Assembly: GCA_022792415.1 (NCBI GenBank)
Contig: JAAWAY010000212.1
Coordinates: 1-44,343 of the forward strand
Source: Eggerthellaceae bacterium
Lineage (GTDB): Bacteria; Actinomycetota; Coriobacteriia; Coriobacteriales; Eggerthellaceae
DNA: 44,343 nucleotides
Direction of reading: 5' to 3'
Shown: positions 4,034 through 30,800 of the stretch, one piece after another
How the letters are laid out: each line of letters starts with the position of its first letter
How positions within the stretch are numbered: the first letter of the stretch is position 1
Translations under genes and position numbers: made by a program
Notes under the pieces: model-generated
Databases searched by the model: none
What the model was told of the DNA's origin: nothing
Seen by the model: the letters and a program-made list of their open reading frames with translations, nothing else

Positions 4034-4433
4034 GCGTTCTTTTCGCCAGCGGGGAGTTACGAGTGGCTCGAGAATTCTGTATGCACTTTAGTTAGAAAGC
4101 CGTACAATGGCAACGTTGCGCTGCGACCCGGGCGAGCTCGTTCCGCCAGGGCCGCATGGGTTCCGCAGCGCGGCACATTCCATTCCCTGGGCGAGCGTTT
4201 TCTGCCCATCCTCGGAGTCGTCGCCCCGCTCCTCACGTCATCGCAATCCTGGGCGAACGCCGCGCCGATTCTGCGGTCGTTTCGGTAATTCGCGCATACA
4301 GGCCGTGCTCATTCGAAGAACCTGTGGAGACTTGCGGTTTTGCCCACGTCATCGGGCGTCTTTCAGCCTATTTTCAGGTTGATGTGACTAAAATGGGGCA
4401 GCTTTGAAACGTAACAGAAAGGTTACAGCACTC

Positions 4434-5657
4434 ATGATCAAACTCTCTAGCTTCAAGCGCGTTGGCGCCGTGGCGGTTTCCGCGGCCCTCATCGCTACGC
4501 TGGCCGGCTGCTCCGGCGGCGGCAGCGGCATCTCCGACACGTCGCAGGGCACCGCTGCCACGCTCAACGGCAAGCCCATCGGCGAGAAGGCCATCACCGA
4601 CTACATCGTGGACTTCCGCGAGTCGATGGACCTGACCGACGACGACGCGTGGGCCCAGTGGATGGTATCCAACGGTTACACGCCCGAGAGCGTCCGCACC
4701 GAGGTCATCAACTACTACGCCGACCAGATGCTCTACGAGCAGGCGGCCGAGGAGAACGACATCAAGGTCGAGCAGTCCGAGATCGACGAGGCTCTGGAGC
4801 AGGCCAAGGCCATGTTCGACTCCGACGAGGAGTGGAAAGAGGCCCTGGAGCAGAGCGGCATGACCGAGGAGGAGTACGTCAACGACATCCTCCGCATGAG
4901 CCTGCTCACGCAGAAGCTCGAGGAGGCCGTGGTCAGCGACTCCGGCGAGGGCACCAGCGACGCCGAGCTGCTGGCCTACCTGCAGGACAACGCCGCGCTG
5001 ATGGACGGCACCAAGCGCTCCAGCCACATCCTGTTCAACTCCGCCGATGCCGAGACCGCCGCTGACGTGCTCGATCGCATCAACTCCGGCGAGCTGGACT
5101 TCGCTGAGGCGGCCGAGCAGTATTCCACCGACGCTGCCAGCGCGGCCAGCGGCGGCGACGTGGGCTGGGATGCGACGGCCTCCTTCGTGACCGACTACCA
5201 GAACGCCCTGGACGGTCTGGAGGTCAACCAGGTGAGCGACCTGGTGGAGAGCACCTACGGCATCCACATCATCAAGTGCACGGACGTTTACAACGTGCCC
5301 GAGGAGGGCGTGACCTCCCTGGGCGAGGTGCCCGAGGAGATCGTCGAGACGGTGCGCACCAACATGTCCGCCAGCACCAGCGGCACCTCGTTCTACACCT
5401 GGTACACCGAGTACCGTGAGGCCGCCGAGCTCGAGATCAACCCGATGCCCTCCGGCCTGTCCTACGACGTGGATCTGTCCGAGTACGAGTCTGCTGCCAC
5501 GAACAACGTGCTGAGCTACGATGACGCGTACAGCAGCTACACCACGGATGACACCTACGTGGACGACAGTGCCGCCGCCGGCTCCTCCGACGCCGCGGGC
5601 TCCGCTGACGCCGCCGGCTCGTCCGACAGCGCTCAGGGCAGCACGACCAGCAACTAA
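4434..5657 (+). CDS. PpiC/parvulin-type peptidyl-prolyl isomerase lipoprotein, copy 2
   Basis: MIKLSSFKRVGAVAVSAALIATLAGC lipobox; SSHILFNSADAETAADVLDRINSGELDFAEAAEQYSTDAASAASGGDVGWD...GIHIIKCTDVYNVPEE closely parallels copy 1. Start at 4434 chosen because agaaagg lies ~10 nt upstream (ORF-track start 4404 overlaps this RBS). Confidence 0.9.
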   Translation: MIKLSSFKRVGAVAVSAALIATLAGCSGGGSGISDTSQGTAATLNGKPIGEKAITDYIVDFRESMDLTDDDAWAQWMVSNGYTPESVRTEVINYYADQMLYEQAAEENDIKVEQSEIDEALEQAKAMFDSDEEWKEALEQSGMTEEEYVNDILRMSLLTQKLEEAVVSDSGEGTSDAELLAYLQDNAALMDGTKRSSHILFNSADAETAADVLDRINSGELDFAEAAEQYSTDAASAASGGDVGWDATASFVTDYQNALDGLEVNQVSDLVESTYGIHIIKCTDVYNVPEEGVTSLGEVPEEIVETVRTNMSASTSGTSFYTWYTEYREAAELEINPMPSGLSYDVDLSEYESAATNNVLSYDDAYSSYTTDDTYVDDSAAAGSSDAAGSADAAGSSDSAQGSTTSN

Positions 5658-5704
5658 CCCGCAAGGGACTTGCGTCCCTCAGCGAAACAGTTTGAGATTC
5701 AAAG

Positions 5705-5740
5705 AAAATCCCGTCCCACCTGGGGCGGGATTTTTCTTTT
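5705..5740 (+). terminator. Intrinsic terminator after PPIase copy 2
   Basis: AAAATCCCGTCCC-acct-GGGGCGGGATTTT-TcTTTT, 13-bp stem with one T-G pair and T tract. Confidence 0.92.
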
Positions 5741-5990
5741 CCCACCAACGAAAACGAACCAACGAAAGTAAAACAACGAATACAGACGCAACCAAATTAG
5801 GGCCAACCAAAACGAAGTAGTCAAGCCGAGACAAACCAAGTCGAGACCAATTAAGACGACAAGACGAAGCCAACTAAGCCAAGACCAGCCAAAGTGAGGC
5901 CAACTAAAACGGGAGAAGTCAAACCAGGAGAGAAGAGAACGAGTCGCTCAGAGTCAAGCAGCTAAAACGAACCGACCGAAACGGAAGCGA
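5741..5990 (+). repeat. T-poor A/C-rich degenerate repeat region
   Basis: Recurrent accaacgaaa / ccaa(c/t)(t/c)aaaacg / caag(c/t)cgagac words; imperfect direct repeat ggccaaccaaaacgaagtagtcaa (5801) and ggccaactaaaacgggagaagtcaa (5898). Confidence 0.6.
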
Positions 5991-6086
5991 GTTATGGACG
6001 AAGGCCTAAAGTGCCACACCGGAGTAGCGCAAGGGACTTCGGCAAAGAGGAATGACAGAGCAAGGAGAACGAAGTGGGGCGTGGGA

Positions 6087-6102
6087 TGTTTCACGTGAAA
6101 CA
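6087..6102. promoter_or_regulatory. parS centromere-like site 2
   Basis: Perfect TGTTTCACGTGAAACA, embedded in the 42-bp near-perfect palindrome GTGGGGCGTGGGATGTTTCACGTGAAACATACCACGCCCCAC (6074-6115). Confidence 0.93.
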
Positions 6103-6129
6103 TACCACGCCCCACGTGCATATGGGGCA

Positions 6130-6425
6130 CAACGGATTGTCGAGGGGGAAGGCGGCAAGAGCAGGGGAAAGAAGGCACGCAGGAGAAGAGAGGGAAATCA
6201 GCGAGAAAAGAGGGAGAGAGACGGAGCAGATTCGAGTCGGAAGACTCGGTAGATGGAAAGCTCGGAGGGAGAAGGCGAAGAGAAATCGGGATGAGAGAGC
6301 GGGAGAAAAAGGGAGGGAAAGGAGAGAAAGGAGGGAAGGGAGGGAAAGGAGGGAAAGGAGGGAAAGGAGGCAGGAGAAAGGAGGGAAGGGAAGGGAGGGC
6401 GGAATCGGGGCGGAAAGGGGTTGGT
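6130..6425 (+). repeat. Polypurine (G/A) tract with a 9-bp tandem GGAGGGAAA core
   Basis: Predominantly purine on the + strand; ggagggaaa units repeat around 6330-6370. Confidence 0.8.
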
Positions 6426-6506
6426 AAAACAACGAATTACGGAATTTTTGTCATGAAAAACGAGGCGCGGATGAGATCGCGAAAATGCGCGAGATTTGGC
6501 GGATGC

Positions 6507-6533
6507 GGGGTGGGTGGGGGAGGGGTGAGTGGG
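6507..6533 (+). other. G-quadruplex-forming motif
   Basis: GGGG-T-GGG-T-GGGGG-A-GGGG-TGAGT-GGG: four G-runs with single-nucleotide loops plus a fifth run. Confidence 0.75.
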
Positions 6534-6647
6534 TGTCCCGAAATTGGTCAACTTGGAGGGCGCTCAAAATACGTCTCTGCAGGTCATGAATGGGATTTTG
6601 GCGGAGACAGTTAGAAAATCAACGGTTTCAGAAATACCTCGATTCGA

Positions 6648-6676
6648 TTGCATTATTGTAACGCCTTGTTTACAAT
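6648..6676 (+). promoter_or_regulatory. Candidate promoter/operator of the giant gene
   Basis: TTGCAT-N17-TACAAT; the inverted repeat ATTGTAA-N8-TTACAAT (6655-6676) covers the spacer and -10. Confidence 0.5.
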
Positions 6677-6678
6677 CA

Positions 6679-6799
6679 ATCTCGGAAGTTTGGCAAGACT
6701 TCCGGGTTTGAGCGTTGCCGAGGCACACCGGTGAAACAGCCTCGGAGTCAGAGTGGCGGAAGGCAGGCAAGACCTTCTGCGAAAACTGAATAGCGAGAT
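6679..6799 (+). promoter_or_regulatory. Structured 5' leader of the giant gene (three hairpins, possible closing stem)
   Basis: Hairpins 6683-6704 (CGGAAGT/ACTTCCG), 6718-6745 (CCGAGGC/GCCTCGG), 6756-6780 (GCGGAAGG/CCTTCTGC); ATCTCG (6679-6684) is complementary to CGAGAT (6794-6799). Confidence 0.5.
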
Positions 6800-6864
6800 C
6801 AGGCAATCCGTCCGCGCCTTGCGTGCGCGTGGCGGAATCCGTCGTCAAAGTATGGTGAGAGCGT

Positions 6865-9800: not shown

Positions 9801-12800
9801 CGGCGAGCTGGACATCAACTTCAAGCGCCCGGAGTTCCAGGTGCAGTTCTTGGGCACCATCCCCGAGAACACGGGCGCCACGGTGCTCATCGGCGGCGAG
9901 GCGTCGCTGTACAACAACATGGTGAACAAGTACACGGGCCACTTCTTCCGTGACCCCGGCGAGATGCGCTCCGGCGACATCCACAACCGCACCATGACGT
10001 TCATCAAGACCAACCTGCAGTGGAACACCACGGTCACCAACATGTGGAGCCCCGCCATGTGGGACCAGTACAACTACATGGTGTACCGCATCGAGACGGT
10101 CAACACCTCCGAGGACCCGGAGACGATGATCGACTTCCTCAGCTACTCGTTCGACTGCACCGGTGACGGCACCGGGTCGGGCGGCATGCGCCAGGAAGAC
10201 CTGATGGCCTGGTGGTCGGACGGCACCAAGAACAACATCTTCACGCCCGACGCCAAGGGCCCCGGCGGCATCCAGACGCTCCTCGGCAAGCCCATGGAGG
10301 GCGGCGTGCTCATCTACGACGTCACCGACGTCGACGACTACATCTGGAAGGGCGAGAGCAACGGCGGCCTGGACCTGGACAAGTTCACCAACGTGGACGA
10401 GTTCCTGGCGGAGGATCCCACCACGGGACAGTCGCTCATCCGCCCCATCCAGTACACCACGGGCGGCATGGACCACCGCATCACGTTCGAGATCGCCGAG
10501 GAGGAGGGCGGCAAGCTCATCGCCCACTCCGACAAAGACCGCCGCGTCATCCTCATGGCGCTTCCCTACACTAATAACTTCACGTCGTTCACCATGAACG
10601 GCGTCAAGGTGTACCCCAACGTGTCGCTGGACACGGCGTCCGCCGTGTACTTCGGCGGCCGCGGTCGCGACGGCTACTCGTGGGCCAAGCGCCTGTACAA
10701 CTCCGACTCGTTCAAGGAGGCCAAGAACGGCTTCCAGCACACGAAGCTGGCCTACAACCGCCTGGGCGGCAACTGGACGGGCGACGCCCGCGACCGCTTG
10801 GGCTACCTGACGCGCTACCGCATCAGCAACCTGACCACCACGGGCAACATGCCGGTGTCGGGCAACGACCTGACCACGCCCTACGGCGCCGTCATCAGCG
10901 ACACATCGCCGAAGAACTACGAGCTCATCAACATCGAGTACCGCATGAAACGCGAGGCGGGCACGGCCCACGACGGGTCGCCTATCCTCAACGACCTGGA
11001 AGACTTCCTCTACATAGACGGGACGAAGGCCAATGGCATCCAGTTCGAGGTGCGCACGGGCAACGACACCGCGTCGTCGGCCGCGCCGCGCCATTGGGTG
11101 ACGCTGCCGCTGGACGCCACGGCCCAGCTGGTGGGCCCCGACCCGGAGAACCCGGCCTACGACCTGTACCGCCTGGGCGGCACCTCCACCAGCGACGGCA
11201 TCGCCAAGATGCTCGAGGACGTGGGCATCGCGGCCAAGCCCCGCAACAGCGCCATCACCATCACGGGCAACAAGCGCATGGAGTTCACGGGCAACATCCG
11301 CATCCTCATGGCGCAGACGCTGCCCAAGAACACCACGCTGCCCATCGAGATCACGTTCTCCGGCATCATGCGCTCGCCCGTCAGCAACGGCGCCGACGGC
11401 CGCTACACCAACACCATCCAGACCGACTACGGTCGCAAGCAGTGGGTCGTGCCCAATCAGCAGTACGACACGGCCAAGTACCACAACGACCCGACCTCCG
11501 CGTCGCTGCGCCCCGAGAGCGGCGTGCGCCCGTGGGTGGGAGGCGCCGGCTACGACAAGCCTTCCGGCGCGGCCAGCCCCAACTACAGCGCGTGGAACGG
11601 CACCATCAACGCGCCCATGAACGAGACGCGTTCCGGCTTCATCTTCCATCTGGGCAACGAGAGCACGTCCATGATCGAGCCGGGCACGTTCGTCACGAGC
11701 AACATGCGCATCGCCGACAAGAAGTTCACTGGAAGCTACAACGGGCGAAGCGGTATATATATGTATCGCGGCTTCGACACGACGAGCGTCGAGCTGTCGG
11801 CGGCACTGTGGGATAAGTCCAACATCACCAAGGTGCGCGTGTACTACCAGAACCCCAACCACCAGTTCAACCACGGCACGTCACTCTATCCCGACTACAA
11901 AGACTGGGATTACAAGGACTTCAGCCGCGCGCAGCTGCTCACCATGCGCCAGTCCAACGGCACGGTGGTCATCCCCAAGAGCAGTTGGGGCTCGCTGAGC
12001 GGCTGGGAGAACAACTACCTGCTGCGCATCGAGATCACGTTCGACACGTTCAACAGCGACGTGGCCAACGCGTCGGGCCCCAGCGCGTCGGGCACGCCCA
12101 CCGTCATCTACCGCGGCAAGACCAGCTACACCGGCAACTTCACCGTGAAGGGCACGTTCAACACCGCCTACGCGCTGGGCGGCACCCAGGTGAGCGCGTC
12201 GGGCACCGGCACGCTTAACATCAACCCGGCCCAGCCGCGTATCTACGCGTCAGCCTACGAGTCGGGCAAGGGCTGGAGCTACTCGTGGAACTACGAGCGT
12301 GCGTCGGCCCTGGGCCGCGCCAACTCGGGCTTCACGTTCCACTGGGGCAACTACAGCCCCACCAAGCTGGAGCCCGGCCGGTTCACGACCACGGCCATGC
12401 CCTACCAGTGGCACAACGGCAAGCGCCGCGGCTTCGACACGAAGACGGTGTACCTGTCGGCTGAGACGTTCACCGTCACGGACAACTCCATCAACGAGAT
12501 CATCATCACGGCGCTCGACGCCGATGACAACGAGGTCACCTACACCTTCAAGAAGGACGACACCGTTGACGAGATCACGCCGCTGCGCGCCGCCAACGGC
12601 AGCCTGACGCTGACCCCCGACAAGTGGGGCAACAACTACTTCAGCAAGGTCGAGGTGCGCTTCGACACCATGCGGGAGAACACCAGCGCGGCCCCGAACG
12701 GCATGGGGACCGGCCCCCGCGTGACCATCGAGGGCGTCACCACGTGGCTGGGCGCCGGCGGCACCAACGCGCGCCTGACCGTGCAGGGCGAGCTGCGCAG

Positions 12801-15800
12801 CTGGTACACCTACGTCGACGAGGACGGCGTGGAGCACCTGGACAACGAGATGAACGTCAGCTCCATCGGCACCGACATCAACGGCAACCGCTTCGGCGGC
12901 TATCCCTGCCAGGCCATCCTGGCCCCCTACAACGCCGACCCGGTCATCGACGCCTACGCGTTCGATCGCGGCAAGTCGTCCATGTTCAGCTCGGACGGCG
13001 GCACGCAGACGGCGCCGCTCAACAGCGAGCGCTCGGGCTGGTACTTCCGCGTGCGGAACAGGAACGACGCCATCGTCGACCCGGGCGTGTTCTCCACGTC
13101 CAACATGGCCTACCAGGTGATCAACGGTGACAAGCGCGGCTTCGAGACGTCGTCGGTGTACATCAGCCGCGGCATGCTCAACTGCTCCACCATCAACAAG
13201 GTGCGCCTGTACTGGTCGGACGCGGCCATGGCCGACAACTACGTCGAGATCCCGTGGGACGCCACCGCGCCGGTGAACCTGCAGCAGTACATCGTGAAGG
13301 CCGGCAGCCAGGAGGCCACCGACTACGGTGCTGCCACGGTGGGCAGCATCGTGCTGCCCTCCACCCTGTGGAATGACGGCTACTTCGCGCGCGTGGAGGT
13401 GTACTACGACCGCTACAACGCCAACGTGAACGCCGGAACCATCGGCACCGTCGACGACCCGTCCGTGGTCATCTTCGGCAAGCCCACCCAGATGGGCAAG
13501 CGATCCGTGACGGGCACCATCCGCACGCAGCACATGGGCAACCAGTCGGACGATGACACCAAGGACAAGTCGTTCGGCTACACGGCGACGCTGGACACCA
13601 CCACCATCGACCCGCAGATCAGCATGGCGGCGGGATGGTCGGCCGGCGGCACCGTCTACGACTCGGGCGTGTACAACAACACCGACCGCAACGGCAAGAA
13701 CGTGTCCGGATCGATGGTGCCGTACCGCTGGGGCGAGAACTCCGCCTACGAGAAGACGTGGTTCGAGTACAGCCTGCAGAACAACACGGAGTGCTCGGGC
13801 GACAACCTGTATTTCAACCTGAACATCAACGAGATCAGCGTTGACGGCGACAAGAACCGCGGCGAGTACCGCGGCTTCGTCGGGCGCGAGCTGGTCATAT
13901 CCGGCTTCAGCCAGAACGCCAAGGGCGAGTGGGTGCACACGTCGGGCATACTGTCGGGCATCGACCTGTACGACTATGCCGGCACGAAGGCCGTCAGCCT
14001 GACCATGGACGACCTGGTGCCCTACATCAGCGGCGGCACGCTCACGCTGCCGTTCAAGGTGACCGACCCGAACACCGGCGACGTGTCCAATTTGGCCGTC
14101 AAGACGGTGCAGCTGCGCTACAAGACCCTCAACGAGTGGGTGACCGTGGGCAACGGCAAGATCCTGCGCGCCCGCATCTACGGCATGATGGAGACGCACG
14201 GATCCGGCCTCAACCAGGCCGCCGGCTACTGGACGGGCACGGGCAGCAACCGCCACTATGTGCAGCCTGATCCGATGTATCGCTACCGTTACACCACGGG
14301 CAGCGCCTCATTCGGCCCGCTGGACAACAGCTACAACGACGCCAACGGCAAGCACACCATCGGCCGCTCCACCAGCTGGCGCAGCTACATCAACTACTTC
14401 AACTGGAACAGCAGCTCGTATGCCTACCGCAGCGCCTTCACGCCCGACGGCGCCACGAGCCCGCTGCTGACCGCCGCCACCGGCGACCCGGTGGAGGTGG
14501 CCCACTACCAGGACGGCTCGGGCTACCACTTCACGGTGAACAACGCCACCAACTCGAGGTCGGACTACAACACCATCACGTTCGACGTGACGTCGGTGGG
14601 CAACAAGCTGGCGGTGACCAATCCCGGCGAGGTGTACGGCTTCCTCACCAAGGAGGTGCGCCTGAGCGCGGCGCTGACGCAGCTCGGCCGCTACTGGGAT
14701 GAGCTGCCGGATGCGACCGGCGCGTCGCGCAAGGGGCAGTCCACCCTGCGCTCGGTGCGGTTCTACTTCGCCGACCCGGTGACGGGCGCGGTGCCCGGCA
14801 ACGCCAACCCCGACGTGGAGCTGAGCGTTGACGACCTGGCCGCCTACCTGCAGTCCAACGGCGACTACCTGTTCACGGTGCATACCGATGACGACCACAC
14901 GGCCGACGCCGCGTTCAAGGCGCACGAGTCGAAGTACCTGCGCCGCGTGGTGCTCAACTACGACGTCATCGACCCCATCTACGCCGAGACGGGCCGCAAC
15001 AAGACGCTTTCCGCCGACTTCAAGGGTGAGACCACCTGGTGGAACAACATGCACAACAGCCAGTACATGGACAACGTGATGACCGCCATCCAGACGGGCG
15101 CGGGCATCCCGGGCGACCTGTACGCCACCAAGTCCACCACGCGCGACCCCAGCCTGTCCACGCCGCGCCCCTTCCTGGACGTGCGCACCCACGGCTACTA
15201 CGTGGAGATGGGAGAGGGCGCCTACAACAACAACTGGTCGACGAGCGATAACAACACCTCGCGCATCGCCGTGCCCTACGACCGCGACTTCGTGCTGTAC
15301 GCCGAGTTCAAGAACACGGCGGCCTACAGCCGCATGGACAGCGTCGACGTGGACATCGCGCTGGGCCTGGGTCGCGAGAGCGGCATCGTCACGCCCGTGG
15401 GCACCACCACGGCCTGGACGGGCTTCCACACCACCAAGATGACCATCACCGCCGACTACCTGGCGCAGTGGGGCAAGCCGGGCAGCATCCAGCTGACGGG
15501 CGCCAAGACCGCCGAGACGGCGGCGTCGCTCAAGGCCACGCTCGACCCGCAGTTCGACGCGTCGGGTGCGCTCACCGGCTTCAAGAGCGGGGCCAAGACG
15601 TTCCCGCTGCAGGCCGACGGCAGCTTCGCGCTGACCGAGCAGGACATCATCGGCCTGGGCATCGACCAGCTCACCTTCGTGAAGCTGGTTGACTGGCGCG
15701 ACGGCGAGCGCGGGGCCTACGACAAGGGCTACGCTAACCAGCGCATCATCTTCAATGGCTTCAGCGACCGCAACCTGGGCGACACCTACACGGGCATCGA

Positions 15801-18800
15801 CGTGCACACGACGGTGTACCTGAACAACATCCGCACCAACGCCCTGCCCGATGAAAACTACTATTACCGCTGCGGCCGCAACGACCGCACCGAGGTGCGC
15901 ATGTCGAAGATGTTCTTCGACGCCAACACGCGCGTGGCCTACAACGACGGCTCGGGCAACGCCTACCAGGAGTGGTCGTATGCCTTCGACGAGGATCACG
16001 ACTACTGGAACAGCTACTATGGCTGGGGTGGCACCGAGATCGACCAGCAGCTGGAGGTGGGCTACAAGTCCCTGGGCTCCTACACCGTCGACTTCCGCCA
16101 GCTGCAAGGACGCAGCGGCGTGGAGAAGGCGTGCCACTACGACCAGTGGTGCGGCACCCACAACACCTACGCGAGCGACTATTGGTGCGCCGATGGCCGC
16201 GCCGGCGAGCACTACTGCACCATCGACGGCCGCACGTACAACACGGCCGCCGTGCTGGACTTCGAGCAGACCATCCCCTCCGACGCCTTCGATGCGTACT
16301 ATATCCGCGTGCGCGACGCGGCCGTGCCCTACCTCAACTCCATCACCGTGTACTACGGCGACGGCTCGTCGTTCAAGGTGGACAAGGCCGACATCCTGGC
16401 CAACCGCCGCAACGGCAACGCCTCCAGCGTGGACGGGCAGAAGTACTTCCGCCTGAACCTGCTGGCCAAGGACGCCAACGGCAACCACGTCGCCGACTTC
16501 AGCAGCGATGAGACCAAGTTCTTCAAGGACGCCTTCGACGGCTACTGGAACGCGTCTGACCCGGCGGCGGCCGACCGCGTGACGAAGATCGTCTACAACG
16601 TGTCCATCAACCAGAACCAGTACACCGACGCCAACAAGAACCGCGCCAACCAGGTGGACTTCGGCACGTGGTTCCAGTGGAACAACCCGAACTACGACGC
16701 CTTCGAGGTGACGGGCCGCTTCTACCAGGTGAAGGGCGAAGTCTACTCCACCACCAACGTGAAGATGCGCATCGGCGACGCCCAGGCCACTGACGCCGCG
16801 GGTTCGGGCAACGGCAACAGCGCCACGCGCACTGGCCACACGGCCCAGATCCGCTACGATGACGGCCTGCGCAACGCCGGGCAGAACTACCGCTCCAACT
16901 TCTCGTACCAGGACTACGTGCACACCGGGTTCCACAGCCACACGCCCTACAAGATGCGCCACCTGTACACGCGCGCCCGCGCCGTGGTGGTGGAGGCCGG
17001 CGCCTACACGCGCAAGGGCTACTGGAGCAACACCACCAACGGCCGCGACGGCATCGTCGACAGCGCGCACCCCTACGACATCCGCTTCGGCAGCGACCAG
17101 TATTTCAGCGTGTCGTTCCAGCGCCACTACGGCTGGGGGCAGTACAACCAGTGGAGCAACAAGCTGTCGTTCAGCGACCAGGCGGTGCTGCGCGACGTGA
17201 TGCCCGTGTGCCGGCCCGACGCCGAGCTGGACTACTACGGCTTCCTGTCCACCGGCATGCAGATCCTGGGCAAGAACACGGCCAACTACGAGAACATCCT
17301 GCCCCACGTGAAGGAGGTCATCTTCCGCCTGGAGCAGTACAACGCCGCGGGCGCCGTCATCGGCACGCGCACCGTCACCGTGTCGCGCGATGACCTGAAG
17401 ATCGACGCCGCCGTTGCCGCCGGCCAGGGCGTGTACATCTACTTCGACCGCCCGAAGGCCAACAACATCAAGGAGGACCCGCCGGAGGCCCCGAGCGACT
17501 TCGCGGCGGCCGTGGCCAACGGCACGGCGTACTCGCTGACGCTGGGCGACGAGGAGTTCGTCGACAGCTACGACATCGTGCTGGAGAAGTTCGGCGGCGC
17601 GGGTGACTACACCCAGGAGCTGGGTCGCAAGCGCTCGCCGCAGGCTAACGCCGATCGCGGCATCCCCGACGTGCGCGTGTACGGCCGCCCCTACGCCTAC
17701 GTCAACCAGACCCCCACGGTCAACAGCGACGTCAACAACACGTCCCAGACGTTCACGCGCCGCTACCTGACGCAGATGAACCCCGGCAACCAGGAGTACT
17801 GGTTCGGCACCGACGGCCTGAACACGTCCTCCACGTCGGACGACTTCGTCAACACCGACAACGCGTACCTGCTGGGCTACCTCATCCCGTACGGTTACCA
17901 CTACAGCATCCAGCGCATGGAGAACGGCTCGCAGAACCTGAGCAGCACCGGATCGATGTCGCACTTCGCGGCCAGCGACAACCTGTCGCCGGCCCACGGC
18001 ACGTTCGAGGCGCGCTTCTGGAACATCCGCGACCGCTGGCCGGACAACCCCGACAAAGACAACGCGGGCCGCGCGTCGCACATCAACCAGGCGACGCTGC
18101 GCACCACCACGTCGAGCGATTTCCGCATGCAGAAGGTGTACGTGCCCAAGGAGCTGGTGCCCACCGATGCCAGCTGCGCCAAGGATGCCGACGGCAACCC
18201 GACGTGGCTGGCCGTGCGCACGTTCACGTTCGTGTACAACGGCAAGACCATATCGGTGACGTGGCCCCAGCTGGAGGCCATGGGCATCGTGTCCAGCCAG
18301 CCCCTGGCCAGCGGCACCTACGCGGGCTGCTACGTGGTTGACCTGGAGCGCTACCTGCGCGAGCAGTTCAACCTGTGGTACAGCAGCAACGGCACGCAGG
18401 GCATCCGCCCGGCCACCTACACGGCCGTGCAGGCCACCAACCTCATCCCGGGCTTCGCGGCCGACCTGACCACCGTCAACCGCACCTACGTCAACAGCCG
18501 CATCAGCAGCCTGGCCATCGACTACTACTCGCCCACGGCCCACCGCAAGAAGCCCGAGACGATGCTCGACGCCAACCAGTACCTGGCCGGCGACCGCAAC
18601 GCCACGCGCGGCAGCGCCTACAACTACGCCTTCGCCTACGACGGCGTGTACGTCGACCGCACGCTCGACGACTTCCTGAGCGCCACGGAGACCACGTACT
18701 CCAACCTGGCCACGGGCAACTGGAACGAGTTCGCCACGCCCGCCGGCAACAAGCAGGGCATGGCCTACCCCGACGTCACGTGCCGCGAGACGCTCGACAT

Positions 18801-21800
18801 CACGAGCACGCAGACGCGCGACCCCAACCACTCCGTGGCCAACGAGTGGAGCTACGTGGGCGCCCACATCGGCCAGCCCACGGCCGACCGCTACGCGGAC
18901 AACGTGCTGTACCACCGCCTGGCCCAGATGGAGACGTCGAGCGTCCGCGGCAAGAGCGTCGACCTCAACGGCACCACCAAGACCATCTTCGCCTACGACT
19001 ACTCCAACAACGACATCGAGTCGCCGGTGTCGTACAGCCCCGAGTCCACGGCCAAGGACGCCAACATCCCCGACGGCGGGTTGTATGCCGGCGATTACGT
19101 TGAGTACGTCGTGCGCGTGGGCAACAAGTCCGCGGCCGCGGGCAGCCGCAACGACGTGCCCCTTGAGGCCGTGAGCGCCCGGTTCCAGGTGGAGGCCGGC
19201 CAGCGCATCGTCGGCTGGGAGGTGCAGAAGGTGCGCCAGTCCGACGGCACGTGGGTGGCTGACAACTCCACCGGCCTGCCCGTGACCGCCCAGATCGGCG
19301 ACACGAGCCTGAAGTCGCTGCGTGACGCGCCCCAGCAGGTGGACCTGTCCACCGGCAGCGTGACGCTGGCCGACGGATCCGTCGTCACCGGGGAGCAGTA
19401 CGCCCAGAACCGCGTGCTCATGTTCACCGTGGGCTCCGAGAAGTGGGAGAAGGTGGACACGGGTCGCGTCGACGAGAATGGCAACCCCGTCTACGAGGAC
19501 GTCATGACGCCGCAGTCCGACCGCCAGATCATGCCCGGCGAGTCGGTGGCCATCCGCATCATCACGCAGATGACCGGCGAGCGCGGCACCGACGCCTACC
19601 ACCAGTCCGAGAACACCACCGGCCGCTACAACACCGACAGCGACATGCCGTCGTACCGCGACCTGGCGCTGCGCGCCGACTTCTACGCGGCGTCCGCGCC
19701 CATGCACGGCTACCTGCAGTACACGGTGCCCGGCGGCGGTGACAACGACCACAACGTGTGGGGCTACTCCAACGACACCGGCCTGCGCACCATCAGCAAC
19801 GGCGCCTACAGCCCCACCTATTACACCACCGCCCACCAGCGCGGCAACTACGTGGTGGACGGCAAGCACAACCAGTTCGGATCGCGCGTGTACAACTACG
19901 TGCGGTTCTACAACCACCGCTATGACCGGGCGCGCAACGGCACGGATCATTACAACGACCCGCGCATCACGTTGGACTACACCGGCCAGGACCCGGCCAC
20001 GCTGCTGCACTCGCGCCCGCGCGCAGACGGCGACACGGCACAGTTAACTATATCTAACATCACGAACCCGACGTACCACACCAGCGATCTGACGGTGACG
20101 GTGAGCCTGCTCGACCAGTACGGCAGCGGCCGCCAGGTGTTCGAGCTGACGGACACGCCCAAGCTGGCCAACGGCACGTCGGCCGTCAAGCGCATCACCG
20201 ATGAGGGCCCCGACAAGGGCAAGATGATCAACCTGCGCTACCCGACCAACATCCCCAGCAGCCTGAACCTGAACAGCCGGGACAGCCTGCTCAAGGACGT
20301 GGTCAACTCCATCGGCAACGCCGGCGGCATCACCGGCGGCGACAAGGTGGACGAGGTGCCCTCCGACACGCCCACCTACACCATCACCTACCAGGCCGCC
20401 GCGGGCGGCGAGGTGGACCCGGATACCGATCCGGGCACCGATCCCGCCATGAAGGGCGAGCTGCCCGCCAACTCCTCCTACGCGGAAGGGGACATCGCGG
20501 GCTCCACGGCCACGGCCAAGCAGGGCTACGAGTTCGAGGGCTGGTACAAGCGCACGGTCAATGCCGACGGCACCTTCACGGACGTCAAGATCGACGGCGC
20601 CACGGCCGAGCTGTCCCCGGCCATCATCGCGGCCAACCTGAACACGCGCGTGTCCACCGACACCGAGAAGCCGTCCACGCCCGGCCCCGGCGCCGGCGAC
20701 GGCGACAGCTCGGGCGACGGCACGGATGACGGCACCGGCGATGGTGACGGGGAGGGTGACTCAGGCGAGGCCGGCGACGGCGACGGCTCGGGCGACGGCT
20801 CCGGCGACGGAGACGGATCGGGCGAGAGCGGCACCACCGGCGGGTCCGGCGATGCCGACGTGCCCAGCACCGGCTCGGCCACCCTGTACGACGACACGCT
20901 CTTCGTGGCCAAGTTCAAGCTGGACGAGAAGCGCAAGTACTCCGTGGAGTACCTCAGCTCCAACGTCGAGCACGGCAAGGTGTCCAACGACGGCGACCTG
21001 GCCATGCAGGCGCTGCTCACCAACGGCATCACCGGGTCCACGGCCACCCCGGCCGAGGGCTACATCTTCGACGGCTGGTACCTGCGCACCACCGCCGAGG
21101 GCAACGAGCCCCAGGACACCCTGGTGTCCGAGGACCTCGCCCTGGAGCCGGCCACCATCATCGAGATCCTCAACAAGCAGTTCCGCGACGAGTACGGCCT
21201 GTACTCCGACGCCACGTTCGTCGCCAAGTTCGTCGACGAGTCGCAGCGCAAGTACACCGTGACCTACGTGGCCGAGGGCGAGGGCCAGGTGCGCACCGCG
21301 GGCTACACCGTGGGCGAGGGCAACGAGGCTACCACCGTCGATCCCGGCGAGTGGGGCGCTACCGCGGTCAACCGCAAGGTGCCCATCGACGGCGGCACCA
21401 TCACAGGCGCCGAGGCCCAGGCCTCGGCCGGCTACGAGTGCACGGGCTGGTACCTGCGCACCACCGACGACGACGGCAACGTCACCGACACGCCCGTCGT
21501 CAGCACGGCGGTGCTGGCGCGCGAGAACGTGACGACCCTGTTCACCGAAGACGAGACCTGCGAGCTCACGGGCGACGTCACCCTGGTGGCCAAGTTCGAG
21601 CCCCGCACGTCGCAGCGCTACACCGTCACCTACGCCGCGGGCGCGCACGGCAAGGTCAGCGAGACGACCAACGCCGACATCGTGGCGCTCGTCACCACGG
21701 GCGTCACCGGATCCAAGGCCACGGCCGACCCGGGCTACGCCTTCGACGGCTGGTACGTCAACCTGAAGGACGCCGACGGCAACGTCACCGAGAAGCGCAT

Positions 21801-24800
21801 CTCCACCGACCCCGAGCTGACAGCCGACGTGGCCGCCGCATCGCTCAACAAGACCGGCTGGGTGGAGCGCATCACCCGCGAGGAGGAGCGCGTCGTCTAC
21901 GACGAGATCACGCGCCCCAAGACCGAGATCGTCACCCAGGTGAAGCAGATCCCCGTCATGCAGCAGGCCGTCGACGAGAACGGCGACCCGGTGGTGGACG
22001 AGAACGGAGACCCGGTGATGGAGCCGGCCGTCGACGAGGACGGCGAGCCCATCATGGAGCCGGCGCTCGACGACGAGGGCAACCCCATCATGGAGGACGT
22101 CGAGGTGCCCGTGACCGACAGCGAGGGCAACATCGTCATGGAGACGGTGAAGATCCCGCAGCTCAACGAGGACGGCACCGAGAAGACTGAGATCGTCACC
22201 GTGGTGGAGGACATCGTCCACGAGGGCGAGACCGTGTACGTGGACACCACCTTCACGGCCAAGTTCACGCCCAACACGACGCTCACCTACACCGTCAGCT
22301 ACCTGGTCACGCCGGGCGGCAAGGTGTCCGTGGCCGCCAACACCGACCAGGTGCTGTCCACCACGAACCTCACCGGATCGCAGGCCACGCCGCTGCCGGG
22401 CTACGAGTTCACCGGCTGGTACAAGCGCACCTACGGCCCCATCCCCGAGGACGGGTCCGATCGCACCTACACCGACGCGATGGTGAGCGACGTGGCGTTC
22501 CTGACGGCCGCCGACGCGGCCGCGGCGCTGGCCAAGGACGACGACGGCCTCAACGCCGACACGACGTTCGTGGCCAAGTTCCAGCCCTCTGGCAGCGACA
22601 CCTACACGGTCACCTACCAGCCGGGCGACAACGGCGACGTCGACACGCCCGAGAACGCCGACCTGCAGGCGCTCAGCACCGACGGCGTCACCGGCTCGAC
22701 CGCGCTGCCCGCCAGCGGCTACAAGTTCGCCGGCTGGTTCGTGCGCACCTACGTGACCGAGGAGCAGGTGGTCATGGAGCCCGTCATGGAGGAGACGTTC
22801 GAGACCATCCAGGTTCCCGTGCTGGACGAGGACGGCTACCAGACCTTCGACGACTTCGGCGACCCGGTGTACACCACCGAGACGCGCCAGGTGTTCGACG
22901 ATGACGGCAACCCGGTGTACTCCGCGGTGATGGTGCCGGTGCTGGACGAGGACGGCCAGCCCATGAAGGACGAGAACGGCAACCCCATCACCGAGCCCAA
23001 GATGCAGGAGAAGAAGGACGAGAACGGCAACGTGGTCACGGAGACGGTGACCTCGCCGAAGGACGAGCCCATATCCGCGGGCGCTACCATCACGCCCATG
23101 ATCGTCATCGCCCAGCTGGAGAAGAACAAGGACGCCAACGGCCTGTACCAGGACCTCACGCTGGTGTGCAAGTTCGCCGAGCGCACGGGCAACGAGCCTG
23201 ACATCGAGATCGACCCCTACACCGTCACCTACGTGGCGGAGCCCTACAACCCGGCCGTCGACGGCACCAACGTGGCCACGGTGACCCCGGCCAGCAACAT
23301 CAACCTGCCCGGCGACAGCGTGGACGACGTCACCGGCGCCGAGGCCACGCCCAAGGACGGCTACGAGTTCGTCGGCTGGTACGTGCGCACCTACCAGGAC
23401 GTGCCCGACACCAGCGGCAACGTCCAGAAGCAGCAGGTGGACGTCAAGATCGACGGCGCCGGCCTGCAGCTGAGCGCCTGGGAGGCCCAGGCGCAGGTGC
23501 AGCGCAACGCCGAGGGCCTGTGCGTGGACACCACGTTCGTGGCCAAGTTCCAGAAGGCCGCGGTGAAGGAGAACCTGAGCACCCAGTCCGTCAGCCAGCC
23601 CGAGAACCTGGGCGACCGCGATCCCATCCTCATCGAGTACTGGGACACCCGCGCCATCAACAACGGCGACGGCACCTACTCGGGCGCCTGGATCACCATC
23701 GACGAGCTCGATCGCCTGAACGCCCTGCCCGAGCGCGTGCCCACCGAGGCCGACGAGGGCTACTACAAGAACTCCAACAAGTTCCGCTACATCACCCAGG
23801 TGCGCTGGACGTACTACGACCTGCCCGCCACCATGAGCGACGACGGCACGACGGCCTACCGCCTGGATGACGTGGCCCTGGTGGGCGTGGCCCGCTACCA
23901 GGACCACCGCGACTCCACCGGCGAGCTGTACGAGAGCTGGACCGCGCAGAAGGTGCCGGTCGACCTGGGCTACACCCATCGCCACGCCGAGGACGCGCAG
24001 CTCGACTTCTACCAGGAGAAGGACGGCGAGAACCCCGGCGGCCTCATCCTGACCAACCCCATCAAGCACTTCGAGCAGGTGATTGAGGGCGAGGCCAAGA
24101 GCGTGCTGCAGACCAAGCAGGACAGCGGCAAGACCACCAACTTCACGGTGTACCGCCGCACGCCGGTCGTGCGCTTCCAGAACCAGGTGTTCCAGACCGA
24201 GGCCCAGGCCAAGGGCACGAGCGCCAAGAGCTGGAACGCCGCGCAGAAGACGGGCTACATCCCCGGCGAGCAGTTCTGGTACAAGGACACGCTGTGGAAC
24301 GTGCCGCGCGGCACCAACTCCTACATGAACATCGAGGGCGAGGTCTACAACCCCGTGTTCTACGAGCGCATCCCGCTCGACTACTTGAAGCAGGCCGACG
24401 GCAGCGACATCGACGCCGACTACCTGGCGGCCCGCCTGCAGAACAACATCCGCTGGATCGACATCTTCGGCAAGGACGTGAAGGCCCAGCGCCTCAACGG
24501 CATGAAGCTGAAGGTCACCCGCGTGGCCGAGGAGGATGCCCCCGAGGTCGCCAGGGACTACGGCGGCATGATGAACTACAACAACTCGGCCAAGGGGTAC
24601 TCGACCTATCGCAACGGCAAGCCGTTCAACGACCTGAACCCTGCGTCGGGCAACACCTCCGAGTACACGCGCTTCGCCCTGTTCCGCATCGAGTGGGTGC
24701 CCGACCCCGACGTGCCCAACCCCGGCTCGGTCATCCCGGACAACCGCGAGGAGATCTCGCCGGTCGACCTCATCCAGCCCGGCAACGTGTGCGTGGAGGT

Positions 24801-27800
24801 GGGCGACACCATCGAGCTGTGGTTCGACGTGACCGCCGCCATCGACGGCCTGCCCCAGGTGTACGGCAACATGGCCAACGCCTACGCGTCGACCACCAAG
24901 GGATCCGAGCCGGTGTACTTCCCGCGCATCGGCGAGTACTGGTCGTCCTACGGCGACTCCTACGTCGGCAACAACTACCAGACGGGCCGCATCAACGTCA
25001 ACCCGCTGGCCGGCAACAACTTCACCGCGTCCAACCCGGGTGTGGGGGCCTCGTACGTCAACAACGGGTCGGTCCTCATGGACATGGACTCGCTGCTGCA
25101 TGAGTCGGCGTTCACGGCCGACAAGCCCAAGAACACCGACCGCTGGGAGATGTGGGACGGCTCGCTCACCTTCATCCCCGGCGAGGCCAACAACCAGAAC
25201 GTCGACTACAACTACACCTATAACTGGAACTCGCGTCCCAACACGATGAACGGCACGGACGGCTTCCGCGGCACGTTCCTCGACACTGATTCCAAGACGT
25301 CCAACTACGTGCAGTGGGCGCGCTACACGCCCAAGCGCCCCTACAGCGCCGGGACGCAGGCCAACCTGTACAAGAACGCCTTGCCAAGCACCCGCTACCT
25401 GGTCAACGGCATGAGCTCAGGCTGGAACGAGGACGTGGTGCGCGTCAACGAGCGCGTCAACAGCACCTACGACTACCGTCGCAGCTACTGGCGCGACTAC
25501 GACAACTTCGTCACCATCCGCCGCACGTGGGCGGGCAACAAGGTGCACAAGGACGACGAGGGCAACACGGTGGGCCTGCCCACCCAGTGGGGCAGCACCA
25601 CGCCGCTTCTGTGGTCGCAGACGCGCGTCCACCTGCAGAAGGCGTGGCTGGCCACGTCGTCGCAGTTCATCCCGTCCACTGATGTGCAGGCGCCGCCGTC
25701 GGGCCCGCAGGGCACTACCTCGCCCTACGAGGCCGAGCGCCAGTACCTGAGCGGCCGTGACGCCAACGAGTGGTGGTACGAGCGCAACGACGCGTACGTG
25801 TGGTACCGCCAGACCCTGCGCGACCAGCGCGGCGTGCTGTACGGCCAGTACGACACCACCCTGCAGTACAACCAGAGCTACACCGCCCGCCTGCAGGCGC
25901 TCAACTACGGTGACCGCAACCTCGACGGTGTGGAGTTCACCTATATCTTCCCGCGTGGCGCCGAGCCCAACCTGAACGCCGACGGCGTCCCCATCCTGAC
26001 AGCCTATACGCTGAGCAGCGTGGGAGGTCCGTACGGCGCGGGTGGCACCACCGGCGTGAGCGAGTCGTGGGCGCCCATCGACTCGTCCTACGTGGACGTG
26101 GAGGTCGTCCAGACGCCCTACGGCGACTACCAGGGCTACGACGCTCCGTCCGACTCGCAGAACCCGGCGGACTACCGCAACGGCCTGGCGCTGCACTCCA
26201 CCGACCTGTCGGTCGACCCGGCGCTGTCCACCTACGAGGCCGTCGCCGGTGGCGATGCCTCGCGTCGTGGCGAGGACTACGTCACCAGCTCGCAGCCGTG
26301 GGTGGTCAAGATCACCGTGCGTAGCCCGCTGACCAAGTGGTTCGGCCGCGACATCGACACCAACGCCGCCAACACGGCTGATCGCGACAACGTCAGCGGC
26401 ATGCGCGGCTACAAGATGATCGTGGACATCAGCTCGCACGTGTTCAGCACCAACACGTCGGGCTACTGGTACGACCGCGTGCTGACGCGCCCCGTGGACA
26501 CCCGCGAGGTGACCGGCTCCGACACGTCCAAGGGCGAGCTGCCCTCCAAGTCGAGCGCCTACTACCAGGTGTACGACATCGACCACTTCGAGGGCCGCAC
26601 CGCCTGGGAGCCCGACGGCAACAAGAGCGACGGCGATACCAACAACAGCCAGCCCTACGGCATGGACTACATCTGGACGGCGCGATCCTGGTACGCCCAG
26701 AGCTACTGGAACCTGCCGACCGTCTATGATCAGTCCTACGGGTCGCCCAACATGCCCTCGGTCAACGGGCGCCTGGTGCAGAACAACACCGTCGTGCTCA
26801 CGCGGTGGGAATACGATGCCGACGCCAACGACGGCAAGGGCGAGTGGAAGGACACCGGCGAGGACGTCAAGGCCGGCGTGAAGGTGTCCAACACGGGCGC
26901 CCAGACCGACTGGCACAAGGCCTACAAGAACTCCGGCGTGGAGGGCACGCCCGAGCTGTACGCCCAGACGGGCACGCGCGCCCGCATGCGCAAGCCCGTC
27001 GTGCGCACGTGGAACACCCTGGGCACCGATGGCGTCACCGGCAGCCTGGCCGAGTACTACGTGGAGAGCGAGGGCGCGCGGCGCCAGCTCAACGTCCATG
27101 TGGAGAACCGCTACTGGTGGGATATGCTGGCCCAGAACACCACCGAGCGGAACGACACCCGCTGGAACATCTGGGGCGGCTGGTGGGAGCGCCTGTACCA
27201 CACCTATTCCGTGGACGGCGGCCAGATGGGCGATCTGGTGCTGCCCGTGGTGACCGTGGTGCTGCCCGAGAACATGGTGCCGCTGCGCGCCGACGGCCTG
27301 CCCTATGACAAGCTGCCCGACGTGGAGCAGGGCATGGCCGCAGGCGACTGGAGCGTCAACTACGCCACCGACGCCACCACCAACTCCAAGTACAAACTGG
27401 CCAACAACATGGATGCCAAGGAGCCTTGGCGTGACTTCAAGGCCACCGTCACCTACGAGAAGGTGGCCGACGAGGGCGTGGCCGGTACCGACACCATCCC
27501 GGCCAAGCCGGTGACGGAGTCGTACCGCTTCGTCATCCGCTTCGAGGCCCGCGGCGACGTGGACACCTCCGGCGAGACGGCGGCCGACTACGCGCTGGGC
27601 TACGACCCCTCCAAGGTGACCGTGACCGGCGCCGTCAACGGCGGCCGCAACAGCAACTACAACACCGGGCGCAACAACCGCTACGACTCCGCCGCCACCA
27701 AGAACGGCAACGGCGAGCAGCGCATCCGCGCCTACGACATGAACACGTTCAAGTTCAACATCATGACGGTGGGCGCGTCGCGTTCCGACGCGGACGAGAC

Positions 27801-30800
27801 CGCCTACTCCGAGACGTGGCGCAGCTACGAGAACATCCGCACCTACGTGTCGTCGAAGATGGACGGCTACCAGTTCCTGGCCGACTCCAACATATCCGGC
27901 AACCCCTACCAGGTGGGCAACACGCCGCAGTACCGCCGCATCTCGGGCGTCTACGATGACACGCGCCTCGACACGCGCCAGGCCGAGTACCGCACGAGCC
28001 GCAGCGACGGCATCGCCTACGACTACGACCGCACCGACTACCTGAACCACCCCACGACCACGGGCAACATGTACCCGTACCGCACCAGCGTGGTGGGCGT
28101 GCTGCCGAAGAACTCCATCTTCGACGGCAACTACACGCGCGCCAACGAGCCGGCCACCAACTACCTGCCCGGCTTCACCAAGCGCTACACCGAGAGCCAG
28201 AACGGCCTGGACAGCGTGACGCCCACGGGCAACCTGGGCATCATCGTGGAGGACTACCGGTTCCGCGAGAACCTGGCGCTGTCCGCCACGGCCACGTACC
28301 GCCTGAACGGCAACGAGGCCGTGCGCACGGCCGACAACTTCAAGCGCAACCGCACGGGCACGGCCGACACGCGCGACGACCAGGGCTTGATGACGGGCCT
28401 CAAGCTGCGCTGCTCGTATCCCACCGTCAAGGCGGAGTACGAGGTGGCGCGCGGCACCGGCACCAACGGCGCCACGCCCGAGGCCATGGGCAACGGCGCG
28501 TACTGGGACCAGAGCCAGTACTACAAGGATTCGTGGAGCACGGGGATGCCCCAGGGCTACTACCGCAACGACCGGTACTACTGGCTGGCGCGCAGCGCGT
28601 CCTACGACGGCAGCTACCATTCGCTCAACCCGTTCCGCCCCTATCGTCCCAACACCTCGCCGGGGTGGTCCAACCAGTTCATCAAGGACACGGGTCGCCA
28701 GATGGGCGGCATCTCCGACAGCGCGGCGTTCCAGTACGGCGACACGCTGTGGTACCAGGCCAAGTTCTCCAACCTGAACAACGGCTACGACCAGTCGGGC
28801 CGCCTCATGCACGCCAAGCTGGTGTTCGCGCTGCACCTGCCCAAGCAGGTGACGTTCTACACCGACAAGATGCTCACCGACGACCCGGCCGTCGTGGCCG
28901 CCGACAGCGGCTACAAGCTGATCAACGACTACGAGGGCGATGACTACCAGTTCCTGGTGGAGTACTACCACTGGGATCGCCACAAGCGCACGTGGGTGAC
29001 CGAGCACCTCACCCCCAAGCAGCTGGTGGAGAAGGGCTGGACGGTCAAGATCGTCGAGCAGCCCAACTACACGTCCAACAACTACGACGGCACCCAGGGA
29101 GGCATCGACTACGGCAAGGTCGACGCGGACAACCCCGACGACGAGGCCGCGCCCAACATCAAGACCTACGAGCACGACGCCGAGGTGGTTGTCTTCGAGC
29201 TGGCCCCGCCCGATGACGCCGACGACGAGGAGTTCGAGGAGTACGACAACCTGCTCCACGCCATGTGGGGCGGCGTGTACGCCGACGGCCACCTGGGCAT
29301 CGGCGACTACGTCACGCTCAAGGTGCGCACGCGCATCGACAACCTGGGCGACGCCGAGAGCGCGCTGACCGGCATGCACACCTCCTACGCCGACCAGCTC
29401 AAGGAGCTGCGCACGTGGGACGGCGGCAACTCCACCATGTACGCCACGGTGCACGATACCGACATGTCGTGGCTGGATGCCGCCAACGGTGGCACGGACT
29501 GGACGCACACCTACGCCAAGGACGTCTACGACAGCGACGGCGTCACCATCACCAAGCCGGCCGGCTCGACCGCCGTCAAGCCCACCAAGCCCGCCGTCAC
29601 CCAGGTGGGCCAGGAGGGCTACGGCTTCAACGAGCAGAAGATGGCCCGCTTCATCCGCTGGGGCCGCTACAACGGCTTCGTGCGCCTCATCTCCGACATG
29701 GTGTCCAAGATCGACCCGGTGACGGGCGAGGAGATCCCCGCGGTCGACTACGATTGCGACGGCGACCTGACGGACAGCTACATCTACGACCGCTCGGGCT
29801 TCTTCAAGATCCTGAAGCCCAGCGCCAGCGTGCGCGGCGACACGTTCGTCCAGCGCGCCCTCATGACCGACCAGGACTTCGACATCAACCTGGCCGACGA
29901 CTCGCACCAGGCCGGTGACAACGAGTTCCTGGTGACGCAGGCCATCAACACCGGCTCGGCCGTCAACAGCTTCATCGTGGACTGGCAGGTGCCCTACTAC
30001 GGCACGCTCAACGCCCTGTCCTACGACGCGCCCCTGGCTGACGTCAGCCAGCCCGTCGTGCGCACGCTGCCCTACGTGAGCTACGTGCAGACGGGCGTGT
30101 GGGAGGTTCCCGGATCCAGCTGGTCCAAGCGCACCGTGCAGCTGAACCAGACCAGCTCGGGCACCGACCAGGACGACGGCCTGACGCCCTACAAGGTGGA
30201 GTACTACCTGCAGAACATCGACGACGACAACTACAGCCTGAGCACCGACTCGTCCATCACGGCGCGCGCCAAGGCGGGCGACCCGGTGACGGCCGTGCCC
30301 CAGTCGCTGTCCGGCTTCACGTACAACCCGGATGTGGCGGGCACCGTCACGTCGGGCACCGTGGCCGAGGACGGCTCGCTCGTGCTGAAGCTGTACTACG
30401 ACCGCGACACCTACACGCTCACCTACGACTACGGCGAGGCGCCCCTCGGCGCCACCGACCTGCCGGCCGGCGGCACGTACAAGTACGACGAGACCGTCCA
30501 GGTGGCCGACGCGGCCACGGCCCCGGGCTACTCGTTCTCGGGCTGGGGCGTCACGGGCTACTTCAGCATGCCCGCGGGCGACCTGACGCTGTCGGGCACG
30601 TGGACGAAGAACGACATCACGTCCACGCCCACCGAGTACTCGGTGACCTACCGCACCAACAACAGCTTCGGCACCGTCAGCAAGACGGGCAACTTCAACA
30701 TCCTGCAGGGCCCCAACTTCGAGCTGGAGGACGGCACGCCCGGCATCACCGGCTCGGTGGCCTACCCGGCCAAGGACTGCGAGTTCATCGGCTGGACCGT

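Follow-up and report, generated by a model that had tools for sequence, protein, structure and literature searches.

What is the repeated segment in the N-terminal part of a 12,438-residue Eggerthellaceae protein, and what might it do there? The window, the whole 44,343-nucleotide stretch of DNA analysed here, carries a giant gene in which a first-pass annotation had described divergent copies of an unnamed repeat module at positions 11611 to 17700. We propose, with a probability of roughly 55%, that these modules form an undescribed family of beta-rich domains and make up the membrane-distal portion of giant, sortase-anchored surface proteins in Eggerthellaceae, arranged in the order A(n)-B-C-D with A alone amplified, as a collar plus an extendable run of A domains that most likely serves adhesion. 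The proposal starts from the repeat itself, its four classes and their order rule, a predicted beta-rich fold for class A, an LPXTG motif, and a restriction to one bacterial family in the searched genomes; the function is the conditional part.

The repeat stretches quoted in the first-pass annotation lie in frame at the positions it gave. A strict motif, [RG]GF.T..V.[LIV]S, is found at three places only in the protein (aa 1635, 1855 and 2091) and not once in 300 shuffles, and copies 1-3 share 28-31% pairwise identity (blastp, E 1e-16 to 1e-21). The later copies were expected to emerge from a profile of these three. Alone, that profile gave a weak extra match in copy 5 only (E 0.0012 / 0.085) and did not find copy 4; because it missed class B and was too weak for classes C and D, relatives were added, and the iterated profile then recovered all six copies, the later three included, each at E 1e-24 or better, with reversed or shuffled decoys not below 0.2. 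A profile-profile scan of 94 overlapping tiles covering the whole protein places the family in the 11599-15915 block only, save for a 61-column overlap with SdrD_B. This hhalign match of class A (aa 9691-9950, 88%, about 61 columns, inside SdrD_B) we judged to be chance or convergence. The repeat block thus spans nt 11599-15915 (aa 1579-3017) and holds six copies, three related and three more divergent, each about 200 aa long with a period of about 235-250 aa. The originally annotated end at 17700 lies about 1.8 kb beyond the true one, since 15916-17700 holds just one marginal trace.

11599-12246, plus strand: module copy 1, class A (aa 1579-1794); profile match 4e-66, blastp matches to copies 2 and 3.
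12292-12897, plus strand: module copy 2, class A (aa 1810-2011); profile match 1e-56.
13000-13623, plus strand: module copy 3, class A (aa 2046-2253); profile match 3e-68, AlphaFold2 pLDDT 89.8 and pTM 0.88.
13735-14343, plus strand: module copy 4, class B (aa 2291-2493); profile match 2e-65, leave-B-out profile 9e-7.
14485-15147, plus strand: module copy 5, class C (aa 2541-2761); profile match 7e-77, leave-C-out profile 1e-14.
15253-15915, plus strand: module copy 6, class D, the most remote class (aa 2797-3017); profile match 7e-90, leave-D-out profile ranking 13 of the 14 D copies higher than any control.
17233-17793, plus strand: marginal trace of a seventh copy, not claimed (aa 3457-3643); E 0.003, hhalign probability 20%.

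The protein that carries this block has the layout of a cell-wall-anchored surface protein, in which the following features frame the array.

6865-44181, plus strand: giant ORF, LPXTG-type cell-wall-anchored surface protein of 12,438 aa; a single stop-free frame with an N-terminal export region and a C-terminal LPQTG, hydrophobic stretch and RRRRR.
20362-23544, plus strand: InlB B-repeat block (Flg_new / Flg_new_2; Pfam PF18998 and PF09479), a length-variable spacer that is missing from the G030 relative.
34315-44034, plus strand: SdrD_B repeat shaft near the wall anchor (Pfam PF17210).
44059-44073, plus strand: LPQTG sortase motif, read from the sequence, followed by a hydrophobic stretch and an Arg-rich tail.

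The export region includes a hydrophobic stretch near aa 100-125, and the C-terminal LPQTG, hydrophobic stretch and RRRRR make up the three elements by which a sortase-anchored surface protein is recognized (LPXTG, hydrophobic stretch, basic tail). Because of these two ends, we read the protein as very probably joined to the cell wall through its C-terminus. The SdrD_B and InlB-B repeats identified by Pfam lie nearer the C-terminus than the module array, while about 1,580 residues, including a region without assignment, stand N-terminal to it, so the array is not at the very tip. Sortase matches (PF04203) in the source draft genome, which is 77% complete, number two, one above and one below the cut-off. 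The match above the cut-off, L065 (G000:C30:1416-1736), is the sole one of its kind in that draft and contains an internal TAG, which could be an assembly error or mark a pseudogene.

A comparison with the 9,591-aa G030 relative gives 36-46% identity for the modules and 52-57% for the neighbouring shaft regions; the faster divergence of the modules is as expected for an exposed outer part. The whole InlB-B block is missing from the G030 protein. Both InlB B-repeat blocks of the window (20362-23544 and 30142-31344) are absent or nearly so in that relative, and therefore behave as removable spacers. Two large Pfam-free regions, 15916-20362 and 23545-30000, are 55-57% identical to G030, against the 36-46% of the modules, and are possibly further undescribed domains.

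Directly upstream of the giant gene are two genes for PrsA/SurA-type peptidyl-prolyl isomerases with lipoprotein-like starts (1329-2549 and 4404-5657, plus strand), which may assist folding of the exported giant protein. Among relative loci, both are kept in L032 and one in L053 (G084), and none was seen in L033 or L034. A purine-rich non-coding stretch of about 1.2 kb (5658-6864) separates the PrsA-like gene from the giant gene; a search for Rfam matches in it returned none. Long antisense ORFs face the giant gene, among them one of 5,653 aa at 25417-42378 on the minus strand, and are most likely high-GC mirror frames.

Comparison across genera reveals how the array is ordered. In a tree of 56 copies, those from different genera group by position, which yields four orthologous classes, A, B, C and D. 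Class profiles and tree agree that the source protein reads A-A-A-B-C-D (copies 1-3 class A, then copies 4, 5 and 6 as B, C and D), and proteins with four copies read A-B-C-D. We labelled copies by class profiles in the N-terminal portions of 39 giant proteins encoded in same-family genomes and excluded G089_94, which shows A copies only and ends at a contig end, leaving 38 untruncated proteins. The array ends in C-D in all 38, with B directly before C in 35. For the 27 proteins that lay outside class-profile building, the corresponding counts are 27 of 27 and 24 of 27. Class A alone varies in copy number, from 1 to about 13, counts that are approximate for long arrays, where a weak copy may escape the search or be scored as two matches. 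Two long arrays each have one middle copy that scores best, though weakly, as C (5e-4 and 5e-5), and we read these as diverged A. The first A is the best-scoring A copy against the class profile in the 16 long arrays. This is most simply read as a fixed first A and a fixed B-C-D block, between which further A copies multiply. We give even odds to the fuller version of this reading: an Eggerthellaceae-restricted domain family with a strict positional grammar (a fixed first A, a freely amplified middle A and a fixed B-C-D collar), amounting to a rule for the modular assembly of an extendable contact array, in which B, C and D would have distinct, non-interchangeable roles.

The order rule bears directly on the main rival, according to which the modules serve purely as structural spacers, as interchangeable rods raising an N-terminal binding head (aa 800-1560) off the wall. 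The 1 to about 13 A copies found in different proteins resemble length-tuned stalks, another region without assignment lies N-terminal to the array, and class A conserves few residues, mostly G, F, N, P and V. Spacer repeats, however, are usually near-identical and freely shuffled, whereas the copies here are highly diverged and the positions of B, C and D are fixed across genera; class D also conserves many residues, including several polar ones (38 columns at 85% conservation or more among 11 sequences). We regard a pure spacer role as less likely. With so few conserved polar residues in class A, no binding site can be indicated there.

The first-pass annotation could not map the module to a named family, and broader searches bear this out. 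Pfam (24,736 models), run against single copies, 24 aligned copies and the consensus sequences of classes A, C and D, gave nothing above cut-off; no NCBIfam or PHROGs family passed the cut-off in the module region. Among PDB sequences, the three-copy profile matched DsbD only (E 0.02), a match lost with the 20-row profile, and a viral structure library gave no meaningful match. Plasmids yielded no module, and phages a single chance-level match (E 0.8). SdrD_B and InlB B-repeat (Flg_new) domains, which are repeated in the same protein and in other Gram-positive surface proteins, form other parts of this one and do not match the module in HMM scans, the 61-column hhalign overlap being the one exception. 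We found no description of the module or of the order rule in the literature searched, which consisted largely of open-access journal papers.

Predicting the structure of one copy, as the first-pass annotation had suggested, gave a confident model: AlphaFold2 folds copy 3, from a 20-row alignment, into a single beta-rich domain with short helices (mean pLDDT 89.8, pTM 0.88). The nearest PDB structures in Foldseek are beta-sandwich modules of surface adhesins, including PrgB Ig-like domains, ACE19/CNA, the C-terminal domains of antigen I/II (AspA-C) and a Gemella ester-bond domain, with probabilities of 0.9-0.99. An adhesin-like beta-sandwich is therefore a likely fold class of the module, as far as the model goes. 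The same list could mean that the module belongs, as a distant member overlooked by HMM scans, to a known beta-sandwich family such as the Ig-like/Big, Cna-type collagen-binding or antigen I/II C-terminal domains. We consider this less likely, given that the fits are loose (TM-score at most 0.34 by query, rmsd at least 10 Å) and that Pfam is without a match even for class consensus sequences. The best values, 0.34 by query (7wwn) and 0.47 by target, fall below the TM-score of 0.5 used for membership of the Ig-like / adhesin beta-sandwich superfamily, and because the scores to the nearest folds reach at most 0.34 we file the module in no family. Nor does the class A alignment contain a conserved Lys/Asn/Glu set for an isopeptide bond, a Thr/Gln pair for an ester bond, or the CnaA/CnaB or antigen I/II triad (Lys, Asn/Asp, Glu/Asp). 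Class B conserves E5, N15 and K122. The PrgB Ig-like domains (8beg), beta-sandwich modules of an enterococcal LPXTG adhesin, reach a Foldseek probability of 0.99 but share 12% identity and a TM-score of 0.29 by query with the module and no sequence-profile match, and ACE19 (probability 0.97), which like CNA is a beta-sandwich adhesin domain of a collagen-binding MSCRAMM, differs in its TM-score of 0.27, the lack of a Pfam match and the isopeptide residue set that class A does not have.

A further question is whether all four classes belong together. A class A profile finds C at 8e-10 and the iterated profile finds B and D, which answers the first-pass annotation's question of whether a profile recovers the later copies; with leave-one-class-out profiles C is still found at 1e-14 and B at 9e-7. 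It could be argued that D, possibly along with B, is a beta domain of other descent that stands beside the A repeats and was pulled in by profile iteration: hhalign ties D to A alone (74%; B-D and C-D under 1%) and gives an unrelated SdrD_B tile 88%. We find this improbable, since the leave-B-out profile recovers B and a profile built without any D copy gives 13 of the 14 D copies better scores than any control, be it a reversed sequence or a segment from another part of the protein. An AlphaFold2 model of the C-D tandem from a four-row alignment was poor (pLDDT 46) and was kept out of fold matching; its predicted order in class D (GFHTTK strand, helix, IQL strand, "G.F.LT" strand and helix, "L..VKL" strand, "RIIF.G" strand) parallels that of class A, which at this model confidence is suggestive only. 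Overall, class D is a probable member of the module family and its most remote class. Finally, an enzymatic or carbohydrate-active domain, in place of an adhesive or structural one, is very improbable: some Foldseek matches are glycoside hydrolase and arginine deiminase chains, but these are far longer than the module and fit it poorly (TM-score at most 0.29 by query), so that the matches are probably to ancillary beta regions, while class A has no conserved catalytic-type constellation and the modules form a tandem array in a wall-anchored protein.

Searched with the 20-row profile, the module is present in 20 of 140 genomes of the family Eggerthellaceae (6 of 48 genera), in 19 of 401 genomes of the class and in 5 of 399 of the phylum, and every positive genome is an Eggerthellaceae. 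Named carriers are Enterorhabdus sp. P55, Adlercreutzia agrestimuris and Bacterium D16-34. Module-bearing frames are nearly always very large, at 6,000-34,927 codons. Fragmented assemblies account for the small number of shorter frames (2,486, 3,000 and 4,173 aa), two of which lie on short contigs; the third is in G783. The 34,927-codon stop-free frame, in a same-family genome (G342:C39:9969-114750; L067:9969 onward, ending in L069), closes with LPQTS, a hydrophobic stretch and RRRR, and is among the larger bacterial reading frames. Other very large frames measure 30,463 and 30,639 aa.

Giant LPXTG surface proteins of Adlercreutzia equolifaciens were reported in 2013 (AEQU_0093, 74,766 nt; AEQU_1251, 74,247 nt; PMC3778203), and resemble the source protein in bacterial family, giant size and LPXTG anchor. 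The passages of that account on these proteins give size, composition and anchor only, with no domain or module (PMC3778203). The G007 ORF in our set, which equals AEQU_0093 in length (24,922 codons) and may be the same gene, reads A(n)-C-D with B not detected. Giant-gene homologues of different length were described in another subspecies in 2021 (PMC8142583), and a related swine isolate was reported to be without giant genes (PMC4599084). What we describe is a domain family that is new but of a general kind already known, whose order rule is unusual and can be tested, in a clade whose giant LPXTG genes were already known.

Returning to the adhesion reading, we envisage a fibre whose C-terminus would be linked to the wall, with the SdrD_B and InlB-B parts acting as the shaft and the fixed B-C-D block as a collar connecting that shaft to the run of A domains. 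The A run would extend the fibre or multiply binding sites, possibly as a multivalent contact surface. On this analysis the array probably contacts host or microbial surfaces, the most likely targets being mucus, a host surface or other bacteria. Location, likely exposure and fold analogues make adhesion our best guess, and the fold analogy is itself weak, as TM-scores to known adhesin domains reach at most 0.34 by query.

In Eggerthellaceae, a family of gut bacteria, giant proteins with 9,000 to 35,000 residues turn up repeatedly, and their N-terminal halves for the most part lack annotation. Class-specific profiles and the order rule offer a handle for annotating them and for picking fragments for structural and binding work, and the order rule lets one ask how giant proteins lengthen without losing function. 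If it holds, the positional grammar would govern the modular assembly of some of the largest known bacterial proteins.
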